A DNA stretch of 57,531 nucleotides from Blastocatellia bacterium (GTDB lineage: Bacteria > Acidobacteriota > Blastocatellia > Chloracidobacteriales > JADJPF01): assembly GCA_025057015.1 (NCBI GenBank), contig JANWYG010000012.1, positions 1 to 57,531 on the forward strand, read 5' to 3'. A program made the translations under genes and the position numbers. Below, one piece after another: positions 377 to 33,055 of this stretch; position 1 is the first letter of the stretch; each line of letters starts with the position of its first letter. Under the pieces are notes generated by a model, which was not told the origin of the DNA, searched no databases, and saw only the letters and a program-made list of their open reading frames with translations.

Positions 377-2041
377 TCTCCCTCAACAGCTACTCCTACT
401 ACATCGCCTTTGCAAACACAAAAAGCTGAACAAAGATCTCAAACCGCATTTGAAGCGTTTAACCTGTTTCCCAAAGAAGAAGACAAAGAACAGAAGGCTC
501 CACCACCTCAGCTAACGCCGAAGCCTGGTATGCAGTTGAGGAATCCAAACACTATCAATTTTGAATCATCACTGTTTGGAACGAAGCCTGAAGAAATAAA
601 AGGTTCTCCACAAGAGATATTTGCTCCACCTGCACCGCCACCCGCTCCTACAAAAGAGGCCAAAACATCCTCTTTGGTCTTTTCCATGGAAGAGCTAGCA
701 AATGCCACTCCGGCCATACCTTCCAAACCCACCACTGGAGGGCCTGAACCCAGTTCCAAACCTACCACAGCATCTGGGGAGCCAAAGTCTGCTCCATTTG
801 CAACCCCTTCAACACCGCCACCGCTTCCACCGCTACCTCCATTACCAACCGGTCAGCAGCCTGACAAGCCGAGTTTTGGTAGCGCTACTGGAAAACCAGA
901 ACCCAAGGCTGGCCCAGAAGCGCTAGCTTCTATATTCTCTGCGGCTCCGCCGCAGCCGCCAACACCACCGCAGAGCGTTAAACCTCCTGCTTCAGGTCTA
1001 ACCGTCGCAGAAACCAAATCCCCTTTACCACCGCTCCCCCCACTTCCGCCGGTTACTGCTTCAAGCGGGTCGGGTGAAACAGCTAAGAGCGGTCCGCTTA
1101 GTTCTAAACCTGGAGTGCTTTATATTCCTGACGAGAAGGAAGCTGCAAGTGCTCCTCCAGTCTCTAAGAGACTAGATCCTTACAAGTCTTTGCCCATATT
1201 CTCTACCGCACCAGACAAAACTAATCCACCACCTCCTTTACCAACACCAACGAGTAGCTCCACTTCTTCTGCACCTCCCTTGGGATCGCTGTCTAAGGAT
1301 CTAACTGTTCCCTCCAAGCCATCTTTACCTCCAAATTTACCTATAAGGATAGAGAAAACTCCAACATCACCTTCTGCAACGCCATCTACAGCAACTCCTC
1401 CGCCACTTCCTCAAGAAAGCAACACCTCTGTAGAGTCTAAAGTGTCAGAGATAAAATTTGAACCTACCCCACTTAAAAAGCTAGATTTACCAGAAATTCC
1501 GAAGAAAGTTGTAAGCTCTTCATCCGTAACAGAAAAGAATAGCAAGCTTATAGTTGGCATAGCTGCAGCGGTAATAGTCATTCTAGCAATCGGCTTCCTA
1601 CTGATACCCAGAATAGGTAGCAGCAAAGATCCAACGCAACTGCCAGCTGAATCCTCGAATATGGAGAATAAACCTAAAGCTGAGTCGCCTCTGGCACCTA
1701 TGAGTCCCGCTAACTCTTCTAGTTCGGCTCAGCAGCAACCAACTGCTGGACAACCAACCATTCCCACGGACACCAAGGAACGCATCAAATATGCGCTAGA
1801 GGAGATAAACAAGACCACACTACGAGTACAGAGTGTAATGCCAGACAGCGATCCGTTAAAGCAAATGCGGCTTAACCAACTAAATGCTTTTAGGGAGCAG
1901 CTGCAAGATTATTTGAAGAAAGGCATAGTTACTGATGAAGCAAAGGCATATGCAGATTCGGCTATTAGCCAGCTTATAAGGCTAAATAGTCAGCTCGATC
2001 TTCTACCTCCACCAAAAGAAAAAGTAAGAAAGCAAAGATGA
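2..2041 (+). CDS. Proline-rich repeat membrane protein, 5' end missing
   Basis: The reading frame is open from base 2 to the TGA at 2039-2041, so the true start lies left of the window. About 679 residues are visible. The first 125 are a 45-residue tandem repeat holding the motif SFADIFAGKPPQ. A long Pro/Ser/Thr/Ala-rich disordered stretch follows, with scattered short hydrophobic motifs of similar type (EALASIFSAAPP, SSLFGTKP). Near bases 1547-1610 there is one hydrophobic segment (GIAAAVIVILAIGFLLIP), probably a membrane anchor. About 100 mostly helical charged residues follow it. That tail resembles the tail of the PP2C phosphatase at 14680-16260. The function is not recognised. The architecture suggests a cytoplasmic scaffold-like N-terminus and an extracytoplasmic helical domain. 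It converges on alr with a 6-base gap. Confidence 0.8.
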   Translation, partial: PTATPLSQQKSDKPSSEVSFADIFAGKPPQQKAPTAPAAPVVPPPPTATPLSQQKSDKPSSEVSFADIFAGKPPQQKAPTAPAAPVVPPPPAATPLSQQKSDKPSSEVSFADIFAGKPPQQKAPTSPSTATPTTSPLQTQKAEQRSQTAFEAFNLFPKEEDKEQKAPPPQLTPKPGMQLRNPNTINFESSLFGTKPEEIKGSPQEIFAPPAPPPAPTKEAKTSSLVFSMEELANATPAIPSKPTTGGPEPSSKPTTASGEPKSAPFATPSTPPPLPPLPPLPTGQQPDKPSFGSATGKPEPKAGPEALASIFSAAPPQPPTPPQSVKPPASGLTVAETKSPLPPLPPLPPVTASSGSGETAKSGPLSSKPGVLYIPDEKEAASAPPVSKRLDPYKSLPIFSTAPDKTNPPPPLPTPTSSSTSSAPPLGSLSKDLTVPSKPSLPPNLPIRIEKTPTSPSATPSTATPPPLPQESNTSVESKVSEIKFEPTPLKKLDLPEIPKKVVSSSSVTEKNSKLIVGIAAAVIVILAIGFLLIPRIGSSKDPTQLPAESSNMENKPKAESPLAPMSPANSSSSAQQQPTAGQPTIPTDTKERIKYALEEINKTTLRVQSVMPDSDPLKQMRLNQLNAFREQLQDYLKKGIVTDEAKAYADSAISQLIRLNSQLDLLPPPKEKVRKQR

Positions 2042-14679: not shown

Positions 14680-16260
14680 ATGGCTAAAGAACCGAAGATA
14701 GATATTTCGCTGTATGCTCAGACAGACATAGGGATGATAAGACATGGCAATGAAGATAACTTTCTTGTATTAAACTTGGCTACAGCACAGACCTGGACCG
14801 CAGAAACAAACGATATACCAGAAGGTTTACTATCCTTTTCGCTTAAAGCTCCTGGTTCTTTGGTAGCCGTAGCAGATGGCATGGGCGGAGCACTCGCTGG
14901 CGAAGTTGCAAGCCAAATGGCTGTTTCTATTGTCCGAGATAGATTACTGCAGCTTCTTGCCACACCAAAATTCTCGCAGATACCGTTTCATGAAAAACTC
15001 CGCCTAGCGATAGAGCAAGCAAACTCTAGAATTAATCAAGAAAGCCTCACCAATATTGAGTACTCCGGCATGGGAGCTACATTTACCGCCGCAGGTATAG
15101 AAGGCGACATAGCCTATCTTGCTCAAGTAGGTGACTCGCGCTGCTACCTCATTAGGCAAGGTAGAATAGCCCAAATGACAAAAGATCAGTCACTCGTCAG
15201 CCAGCTAGTAGAAGCAGGGCATATTACCGAAGAAGAGGCCGAACAACATAGTTACAAGAACGTCATACTGCAAGCACTCGGCGCTCAGGCAAAGGTGAAC
15301 GTCATAGTAGATAAGTTCAAACTTCGCCGAGGAGACATATTACTTCTGTGCTCGGATGGGCTTTCTGGAAAGGTCAAGAATAAGGAGATACTTGACATAG
15401 TGCTAGCAAACTTTCCTGACCTAAAAGCCTGCTGCCAAGCTCTTATCAAACTCGCCAACGAACGAGGAGGAGAGGACAATATAACCGTCGTTATAGCTAA
15501 GATCTCAGGTGATGGTCTGATAGAACCAGACACTGATGGGCCTCAAAAGCCAGAATTTATCCCTCGCGATCCAACCTTACCTGACGAGATAGACCCTTCA
15601 CAACTTACCTCTCTAGAAGAACCTACTCTTCGACCCGAACGCTCTAAAGGAAACAAACTTGACGTCATAGAGACACAAGAAGTGCAGGCAACTATGCTAA
15701 ACTTACCTGCAGTTTCTCCTTTAACTCCTACTTCCTCCTCTCAACCAAATACCAACCCGAGTAATGAAGCTATAGAAGCTCCTATTGCCAATAGTCCGGT
15801 ACCTCGATCACTTAGAACAACTTTTGCTCTAGTTCTTATAGTAGTAGCCGTCATCCTTGTAGTCGCCTACTTTAGCGTCAGATATCTAAACGCCCGGCAA
15901 AACCCAGCCTTTCAGCAAATGCCAACCCCGCAGAAGCCTTCCGAATCTGCTGGCACAGATACTTCCCTAGCTGCCAAATCAGAGTATGAATTTAATCTAG
16001 TAATGATCAACGAGTCTCTAGAAAGGTTAGCAGCACGAGCAGAAAATATGCCTGCTACGCAAAAAAAAGACCTGGAGACGGCCTTAACCAAGATAAAGGA
16101 GAGACTTAATAAACTCCAACTACCGGAAAAAACTCTCAGTACAAAGGAAATGACCACCGAATCTAACCTGCTCCTAGAAGAACTTGCCGAACTAGAAAAA
16201 AAATATCCTCCCGAAAGTTTTCCTCCCCAGGTTCCTGTCACAGAGTCCAAAAACAACTGA
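14680..16260 (+). CDS. Membrane-anchored PP2C-type Ser/Thr phosphatase
   Basis: 526 residues. The PP2C domain spans about 10-275 with its metal-binding motifs intact: RHGNEDNF, VADGMGGALAGE, QVGDSRCYLI, LCSDGLSG and GGEDNITVVIA. A disordered acidic/Pro-rich linker covers about 285-375, then one transmembrane segment at about 380-402 (FALVLIVVAVILVVAYF). About 115 helical residues end the protein outside the membrane. It should dephosphorylate Ser/Thr-phosphoproteins and could oppose the kinase at 30536. Its TM plus helical tail resembles the end of the protein at 2-2041. The start ATG has only a weak ribosome site. Confidence 0.93.
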   Translation: MAKEPKIDISLYAQTDIGMIRHGNEDNFLVLNLATAQTWTAETNDIPEGLLSFSLKAPGSLVAVADGMGGALAGEVASQMAVSIVRDRLLQLLATPKFSQIPFHEKLRLAIEQANSRINQESLTNIEYSGMGATFTAAGIEGDIAYLAQVGDSRCYLIRQGRIAQMTKDQSLVSQLVEAGHITEEEAEQHSYKNVILQALGAQAKVNVIVDKFKLRRGDILLLCSDGLSGKVKNKEILDIVLANFPDLKACCQALIKLANERGGEDNITVVIAKISGDGLIEPDTDGPQKPEFIPRDPTLPDEIDPSQLTSLEEPTLRPERSKGNKLDVIETQEVQATMLNLPAVSPLTPTSSSQPNTNPSNEAIEAPIANSPVPRSLRTTFALVLIVVAVILVVAYFSVRYLNARQNPAFQQMPTPQKPSESAGTDTSLAAKSEYEFNLVMINESLERLAARAENMPATQKKDLETALTKIKERLNKLQLPEKTLSTKEMTTESNLLLEELAELEKKYPPESFPPQVPVTESKNN

Positions 16261-30535: not shown

Positions 30536-33055
30536 ATGCAGCCGTGTTCCAATAAGAGATGTAGCGATCCGCTACCGAGCACTTCCGGCAGATGTCTCAC
30601 CTGTAATTCCCTCACCATAGGTAAGTTAGTACGTGACCGATATCTGGTCAAAGAGATGGTTAACCGCGGTGGCTTCGGTGCTACCTATCTTATAGAAGAT
30701 ATCGATCTTTTCAACGAGCGACGCATACTTAAAGAGCTTCGTCCAGCTTCGGAAGAAGGTAGTGAAACACCTACTAGCAAACGCCGAGAAACTGCTGAAA
30801 GGCTTTTTTTACGTGAGGCTGACACACTAAGAAAACTCAATCACAAAGGTATTCCTAAACTTTATGCTTATTTCATAGACGAAGGTTTCTCCTACCTCGT
30901 CCAAGAGTACATCCCAGGCAAAACCCTAATAGAAGAGGCAGAAGAAAAGCCATTTAGCGAAAGAGATGCGAGACAAACGCTGTTCGAAATTGCCGAAATC
31001 TTAGATTACCTGCATTCGCAGCAACCTCCTATCATACATAGAGACGTTAAGCCGCAGAACTTGATGCGCCATACCGACGGACGATTGATGTTGATAGACT
31101 TCGGTGCAGTCTGTCGCGCAGCTAGCCAAGGCCAACAAAGGCAAACTCTAATAGGCTCACCTGGCTACGCTCCCCCAGAACAACAAGTCGGACGTCCAGT
31201 ACCACAAAGCGATCTGTACGCCGCTGGTGCTACTATAGTCAGGCTGCTTACAGGCATACACCCTTCGCAACTTACAAATCACAAAACCAAACAGATAGAA
31301 TGGGATGCAGAAGACTATGTAAGCAAAGAGTTCGCAGCTTTGATCAACGGCCTGCTCGTGCTAGACCCACAGCTGCGGTGCCCAACTGCTGCGGTTTTGA
31401 TAAGCGAGCTGAAGAGATTGGAATCAGTACCTTGTATCATCAGCAGTGAGAGAAAAAACAGATCTTCGGCTGGGCAGCTAGCTACAACAACGTCTTTAAC
31501 ACAAGATCGTGCAGAGTCAAAACATGTGCAAGCGAGCTTAGTTACAGCACTTAGAAGCATAACGGAAGTCAAAGAAGGCTCGCTTTCCAGTACGCCTGTC
31601 CCGACATTACTCTTTCGCATCTATCAAAAGCGTATGACGGGTCTGCTGAAGCTAGAGAGAAAAGGGGCACAAAAGACTATAACTTTCCAGTCAGGAAGCA
31701 TCGTCTTCGCTACCAGCTCGCTGGCAGAAGAAAGACTAGGTGAAATGCTGTTACAGCGAGGAAAAATCAGCTTTGCGGAGTATCTTAAAGCTGAAGAGCT
31801 GATGAAACTTACAGGTAAACGCCTAGCAAGCGTATTACTCCAAATGGGCGTGCTTGCTCAAGAAGAGTTCGTAGACACGGTAATACAACACGTATCAAGT
31901 ATTGTCTACTCAGTTTTTGGTTGGACAGAAGGTAGCTATAGCTTCGAACGGGCTGAGCAACCAGATGAATCAATAAAGATGCCGTTTTCCACAGCGGACA
32001 TAATTTTCGAAGGTATACGACGCATCGACGATATGGAATTGATAAAGCGATGGATAGGTGACTTCAAGCGTCTGTTACGCACTACCAGAGAGCCTCGCTT
32101 GCTCTACCAGGTAGTTACCCCTACTCCACGAGAAGCTTTTATTATCTCACGTATGGACATGGCCATATCTGTAGACGAGTTGTTATCATTAGGTGGTTTG
32201 TCAGAAGAGGAAACCTTGAAGACCATCTGCTGTCTGCTATCGATAGGTATGCTCGAACTAGCAGATGAAGACCAACCCCAGCAACCGCCCCTATCAAACA
32301 TCCTAACGCGTCCAGCCCCTCTTCCTCAAGAACTTGACTTCATCACGGTAGCCCAATTCTGCCGCGAGGTGGAAAAAAAGTTAGCTAGCATAGAAACTTC
32401 CGATGCATATGCGCTACTTGAGATCGATCGGGGAGCTACCGATCGCGATGTCCTAGAAGCATATCAGAAAATGGCCCGCAAGTTTCATCCTGATCGTAAT
32501 TCCCAGCTACTGAACTACAACTTGCGTATACTAGACGACCTAGAAAAAATCTTCTCCGCCGTAGCCTACGCTTATGAAATGCTTAAAACTGAGGACCGTC
32601 GACGACAATACGATGAAAGACTACGTACACTGGGAGTTCTCGATACCCCTAGCGAAGAATTCACTTACACCGGAACTAAGGACCCCTCGACCCTCGACTG
32701 GATGAAGGAAGAGAACTGCGAGCGGTTGATACGCATAGGTCGCAAACACTACGAAGCTGGCCGATATGGAGATGCACGTATGGCACTTGAGAAAGCTATA
32801 AGAATCGATCCGCGACACGGAGATGCACACTTCTATCTTGCTCGCACACTATCACACGCCGAAGGTACCTTTCAGCTGGCCGAACAGTCTTTCCGCCGAG
32901 CTATCGACTTAGAGCCTGACAACGCCGACTACTACGCAGAATTCGGACTGTTCTTGCAAAGATTCCAGCTAAATGATCAGGCCGAGAGCTTATTCAGAGC
33001 TTGCCTTCAACTAAATCCGAACCACCCCGTAGCCAAGAGAACCTCTCGGCTATGA
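30536..33055 (+). CDS. Multi-domain Ser/Thr kinase: Cys prefix, STPK, DUF4388, J-domain, TPR
   Basis: 839 residues. A four-cysteine prefix (C4, C9, C20, C23) is followed by a Hanks-type kinase at about 36-295 with Gly loop NRGGFGATY, K66, HRDVKPQN (168-175) and DFG (188-190). A DUF4388/PATAN-like signalling region covers about 350-575 (MTGLLKLERKGAQKTITFQSG). A J-domain at about 622-695 has HPD at 651-653. TPR repeats run from about 735 to the end. All catalytic kinase residues and the HPD are present. It starts 5 bases after the propeller kinase, so a two-step periplasmic-to-cytosolic signal is plausible (inference). It shares 6 bases with the convergent gene at 33050. Confidence 0.92.
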   Translation: MQPCSNKRCSDPLPSTSGRCLTCNSLTIGKLVRDRYLVKEMVNRGGFGATYLIEDIDLFNERRILKELRPASEEGSETPTSKRRETAERLFLREADTLRKLNHKGIPKLYAYFIDEGFSYLVQEYIPGKTLIEEAEEKPFSERDARQTLFEIAEILDYLHSQQPPIIHRDVKPQNLMRHTDGRLMLIDFGAVCRAASQGQQRQTLIGSPGYAPPEQQVGRPVPQSDLYAAGATIVRLLTGIHPSQLTNHKTKQIEWDAEDYVSKEFAALINGLLVLDPQLRCPTAAVLISELKRLESVPCIISSERKNRSSAGQLATTTSLTQDRAESKHVQASLVTALRSITEVKEGSLSSTPVPTLLFRIYQKRMTGLLKLERKGAQKTITFQSGSIVFATSSLAEERLGEMLLQRGKISFAEYLKAEELMKLTGKRLASVLLQMGVLAQEEFVDTVIQHVSSIVYSVFGWTEGSYSFERAEQPDESIKMPFSTADIIFEGIRRIDDMELIKRWIGDFKRLLRTTREPRLLYQVVTPTPREAFIISRMDMAISVDELLSLGGLSEEETLKTICCLLSIGMLELADEDQPQQPPLSNILTRPAPLPQELDFITVAQFCREVEKKLASIETSDAYALLEIDRGATDRDVLEAYQKMARKFHPDRNSQLLNYNLRILDDLEKIFSAVAYAYEMLKTEDRRRQYDERLRTLGVLDTPSEEFTYTGTKDPSTLDWMKEENCERLIRIGRKHYEAGRYGDARMALEKAIRIDPRHGDAHFYLARTLSHAEGTFQLAEQSFRRAIDLEPDNADYYAEFGLFLQRFQLNDQAESLFRACLQLNPNHPVAKRTSRL

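Follow-up and report, generated by a model that had tools for sequence, protein, structure and literature searches.

The DNA analysed here, a stretch of 57,531 nucleotides from a Blastocatellia genome (hereafter the window; genome G000), encodes two proteins that each end in a transmembrane (TM) helix and a tail with no Pfam domain above cut-off, and the question is whether they form one system. An earlier note, made by eye, had read the first protein (P0001, 2-2041, + strand) as a proline-rich docking protein and the second (P0002, 14680-16260, +) as a PP2C phosphatase, both carrying the same unassigned external domain and together suggesting an undescribed membrane signalling system. The layout on which that reading was built holds in both proteins: a Pro/Ser-rich stretch is followed by one strong TM helix (P0001 residues 517-535, 1550-1606, +, KD 3.17; P0002 residues 382-400, 15823-15879, +, KD 3.09) and then by a tail (126-144 residues). 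The catalytic domain of P0002 (about 14722-15498, +) matches PF13672 (1.5e-15) and PF00481 (9.2e-15), passes the curated cut-off of the Stp1/IreP family NF033484 (241 bits vs 230), and contains the metal-site motifs NEDN, DGMGG, SDGLS and GGEDN; the gene has metB-like and aldehyde dehydrogenase genes as neighbours.

Identity of the proline-rich protein

As it stands in the window, the P0001 frame has no Pfam or NCBIfam domain and is open to the window's first base, which could suit a stand-alone proline-rich protein for docking or scaffolding that has no catalytic domain. However, the window spans contig C19 from end to end, and its first bases fall inside a tandem repeat (1-376, +; 2.8 copies of a 135-bp unit, 98% matches) that marks an assembly break point. 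Each copy codes for a 45-aa unit containing SFADIFAG. The end of another contig, C4, holds 125 bp of a further repeat copy (L061 1-125), 99% identical and in frame with P0001, and the repeat is absent elsewhere in the G000 genome. The 445 residues encoded by the C4 reading frame (L061 2-1336, minus strand) include a PP2C domain at the N-terminus (PF00481, E=9e-19).

The related genomes G002 and G003 have the gene intact. It is a single ORF in each (1381 aa in G002, L062 4649-8794, - strand; 1386 aa in G003, L063 2025-6185, + strand) and comprises a PP2C domain, a long Pro-rich linker, a TM helix and the tail that we term the A-domain. Gene order is also kept: the FHA/zinc-ribbon gene found on C4 lies on one side and alr, the neighbour on C19, on the other, with a PAP2-like gene (a label given by eye) between the ORF and alr in both relatives. 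Given the repeat common to the two contig ends, the in-frame PP2C domain on C4 and the single-ORF orthologues, it is very strongly supported that P0001, at 679 residues, is the C-terminal back half of a second membrane-anchored PP2C phosphatase whose gene is 5'-truncated by the contig end and split between C4 and C19. The join rests on overlap, frame and synteny, no read spanning the junction having been seen. A separate docking protein is thus highly improbable, and the supposed pairing of such a protein with a phosphatase was mistaken: a contig break within a coding repeat made a phosphatase look like a proline-rich docking protein, and any finding that takes P0001 as complete is affected in the same way.

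The PP2C domain on C4 is 43% identical to that of P0002 (E=4.6e-61). In a maximum-likelihood tree of PP2C domains it groups with the sequences of G001, G002 and G003 (support 98/95), whereas P0002 falls in a separate clade (clade II). P0001 and P0002 thus represent two old paralogous clades of membrane PP2C phosphatases. PP2Cs from a sister family branch close to P0001 and not within the P0002 clade; the forks joining them are open, and their orthology to P0001 is likely.

The Pro-rich linker of P0001 (377-1549, +) is probably disordered and cytoplasmic, and is marked by recurrent [LIVM]F[SAGT] motifs. The joined linker of G000 has 11, several of them from the one tandem repeat, against 1.2 in shuffled sequences. 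The linker of G002 has 10 and that of G003 has 11, where shuffles give about 2, and each count exceeds the maximum of 1000 shuffles. The G001 linker, with six against 1.6, is inside the shuffled range, and no [LIVM]F was found in the strip of the P0002 linker that was searched. As short xLF[SAG] motifs they recur across genera in P0001-type linkers (377-1549 in the window; L062, L063, L067). The recurrent motifs are candidate docking sites, and the linker would fit a tether that carries such sites repeatedly.

Sequence and predicted fold of the two tails

The A-domain of P0001 occupies 1757-2038 (+; predicted helices at about 1772-1837, 1853-1921 and 1934-2002) and the tail of P0002, here called B-type, 15967-16257 (+; about 15982-16041, 16054-16119 and 16141-16203). 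The letters that had been aligned by eye are largely present (INKTTLR and INESLER, MP, TDEA and TKEM, a final PP), except that the proposed K-x-x-x-L of P0001 is K-x-x-L in P0002. I-N is present in two of six A-type and one of nine P0002-type tails, and M-P in only one of the nine, so the letters are mostly not conserved in orthologues. The helix-3 markers of the A-domain, A..YAESALSQ and QLD, are missing from P0002.

Statistical comparison gave no significant match between the two tails. BLASTP returned nothing (E=10), local and global alignments scored p=0.083 and p=0.35 against 2000 shuffles, and the optimal alignment differs from the register chosen by eye. The profile comparison that the earlier note had called for gave hhalign probabilities of 0.5-1.4% with two alignment sets: 0.47%, and 1.36% with cleaner alignments (P=0.038, helices 2-3 in register). 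In the controls (shuffled columns, reversed profile, cyclic shifts), the score of the better match is reached by three of 200 column shuffles and equalled or exceeded by many cyclically shifted versions of that profile (up to 16.99 vs 15.18). These results give no support to direct sequence homology of the two tails.

The predicted structures agree. AlphaFold2 models both tails as a three-helix up-down-up bundle, with helices at residues 6-27, 33-55 and 60-82 for P0001 (six sequences; pLDDT 88.0, pTM 0.74) and at 6-25, 30-51 and 59-79 for P0002 (single sequence; pLDDT 83.2, pTM 0.69). The solved three-helix domain 2kub matches both models (76 residues at 2.1 A for P0001, 79 residues at 2.3 A for P0002), and this shared match, in place of a direct superposition, suggests that the models have equal topology and handedness. 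The claim that the two proteins carry the same external domain therefore survives only at the level of predicted fold. Since three-helix bundles are very common, the same fold is no proof of common descent. The best PDB fold matches are unrelated or designed three-helix bundles with Z about 10, none of which stands out; a PDB sequence search found no relative (best E 0.33), and a PHROG search no match below 0.07.

These matches, together with shared letters that are conserved in neither family, could suggest that the tails are unrelated, being amphipathic bundles gained independently as spacers or dimerisers. The patchy presence of tails among clade II orthologues points the same way: B-type tails are also found on PP2C orthologues from a further family of the class, whereas other clade II members lack the tail or end at the TM helix. 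On the other hand, the two tails sit at the same place on paralogous enzymes, agree in size and helix boundaries and have a near-identical predicted layout, and we consider independent gain to have somewhat short of an even chance. The P0002 orthologue in G002 (L003/L069, G002:C46) stops right after its TM helix, its tail having been lost or never present.

The same paralogy, equal layout and equal predicted fold would be expected if both tails descended from one ancestral PP2C-TM-tail gene and diverged past sequence detection. This possibility concerns tail origin only. It is illuminated by the sister-family PP2Cs nearest P0001, whose tails (C-type) are similar in layout by eye. A and C tails gave a profile probability of 1.07%; A-C similarity is thus as undetectable as A-B even between likely counterparts, so that the lack of A-B significance, which otherwise speaks against a common ancestor, leaves common descent possible. 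B and C tails are weakly linked (21.5%, P=0.001, 0/150 shuffles), although the reversed profile scores 5.5% in the same comparison, which suggests composition, and the tail-less clade II members indicate that tails come and go. C-type tails were accordingly rejected as a bridge between A and B. Taken together, we give a common ancestor of the tails a slightly smaller chance than independent gain.

Occurrence of the A-domain on phosphatases and kinases

We defined the A-domain by the pattern A..[YF]A[ED]SA[LI]SQ plus QLD in helix 3, with P, D, K and L at fixed places before it; the P0001 tail has this pattern and the P0002 tail does not. A search with the P0001 tail found the domain at the C-terminal end of membrane Ser/Thr kinases from G001, G002 and G003 (E 2.8e-17, 1.1e-11 and 2.9e-11; G001:C163, G002:C57 and G003:C22); these kinase tails are 35-48% identical to it over the trimmed domain. 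The P0001 tail is about as near the G001 kinase tail (48% identity) as the tails of its own PP2C orthologues (45 and 40%). In the G001 PP2C the A-domain end is missing, as the gene runs off its contig. It is thus very strongly supported, from sequence comparison, that in the relatives the A-domain is common to a PP2C phosphatase and a Ser/Thr kinase. An undescribed membrane signalling system is retained in this other form and not as a pair of phosphatase and docking protein.

A small tree of tails sets those of PP2Cs apart from those of kinases (bootstrap 76), which suggests that the transfer or duplication of the A-domain predates the split of the genera. The dN/dS between G002 and G003 is about 0.17 for the PP2C tail and about 0.30 for the kinase tail; this purifying selection indicates that the domain is maintained. 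The A-domain PP2C and kinase genes are not adjacent. In all three relatives the gene immediately upstream of the A-domain kinase (L065 1517-3220, L064 5324-5986, and the start of L066) codes for a repetitive protein (567 aa in G002), which is a candidate partner; a search for it in G000 gave weak matches only.

In a class-wide search of 162 genomes, the A-domain was found only in the four members of one Blastocatellia family. Three matches near E=0.0003-0.001 lay outside the family in a phylum sample of 396 genomes; the only one inspected (L241) proved to be a TPR protein and was taken as chance. A scan of 84,980 species with a single peptide pattern, which would miss distant relatives, returned five A-domain loci, all in G001-G003 (MAGs labelled Acidobacteria or Blastocatellia).

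The 3.33-Mb genome of G000 itself holds about 55 Ser/Thr kinase domains as well as 14 PP2C matches, which is a very large set for its size, and none of the about 55 kinases examined carries an A- or B-type tail. Several of its membrane Ser/Thr kinases (L136, L153, L157, L162) have, as their C-terminal part after the TM helix, putative domains that by eye resemble the SUMF1/FGE type (formylglycine-generating-enzyme-like). Within the window, the protein at 30536-33055 combines DUF4388, DnaJ and TPR parts with a kinase domain whose profile match begins only at position 35, and may be a kinase without the glycine-rich loop.

Proposed role and comparison with known systems

The catalytic domains must be cytoplasmic, which places the tails in the periplasm. 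The positive-inside rule agrees with this for P0001 and its PP2C and kinase relatives, which are richer in K/R on the catalytic side of the TM helix. It does not agree for P0002, whose flanks (2 vs 3 K/R) do not favour an inside N-terminus, so that its predicted side rests on the catalytic domain. The TM segments of the kinases are weaker (KD 1.82-2.2).

We thus picture P0001 and P0002 as single-pass proteins with the PP2C domain facing the cytoplasm and a small bundle of three helices predicted in the periplasm. The bundle would most likely be a module for sensing, docking or self-association by which the phosphatase is positioned or its activity set, perhaps through ligand binding, and the long Pro-rich linker of P0001, with its repeated [LIVM]F[SAG] motifs, could serve as a cytoplasmic tether gathering partners. 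As a whole, we consider it reasonably probable that these are membrane PP2Cs with a periplasmic bundle as sensing or docking module, shared with a kinase, and this explanation is compatible with a common ancestor of the two tails. The best reading of the A-domain would be as a periplasmic sensing or assembly domain of a lineage-private phosphatase and kinase, in this respect comparable to PASTA.

A kinase-phosphatase pairing is proposed because a membrane Ser/Thr kinase of the sister genera likewise ends in the A-domain. The two enzymes would probably respond to one common periplasmic partner or come together via their tails, and opposing kinase and phosphatase would thereby act at one site. 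That they form a lineage-private pair, in which one external cue or tail-tail contact joins the opposing enzymes or tunes them oppositely, is a tentative and rather unlikely extension of this explanation. With no A-domain kinase found in G000, the pairing would not be obligate there. The same domain on a kinase and a phosphatase of one organism offers a simple test of whether both read one signal, and so bears on how membrane PP2Cs are regulated from outside the cell, a question open even for PstP of Mycobacterium tuberculosis (PMC12421883).

The closest parallels are systems in which the principle, an outer domain on kinase and PP2C, is already known; what sets the present case apart is the domain itself, its fold and the long linker with LF motifs. 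PASTA domains occur on Ser/Thr kinases (PknB, PrkC, StkP) and on some PP2Cs, mainly in Chloroflexota (PMC12088040), and the A-domain is likewise an extracytoplasmic domain on both enzymes. In contrast to the beta3-alpha fold of PASTA (PMC6213207), it is all-helical in the model, has no Pfam match and was found in a single Blastocatellia family; no PASTA match was found in P0001, P0002 or either tail. The catalytic domain of P0002 belongs with Stp1/IreP, to which P0002 adds a membrane anchor and a tail. PstP (Rv0018c) of Mycobacterium tuberculosis has an N-terminal PP2C domain, a single TM helix and a C-terminal periplasmic domain without known function and with two stabilising disulfides (PMC12421883); this outer part has been described as a putative PASTA domain (PMC12088040). 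The same order of PP2C, single TM helix and C-terminal periplasmic domain is predicted here for P0001 and P0002, whereas their outer domain is predicted to be a three-helix bundle of 80 residues, and the LF-motif linker in the cytoplasm is several hundred residues long. PstP is encoded in an operon with PknA/PknB (PMC12088040), unlike the kinase and PP2C genes described here, which lie apart.
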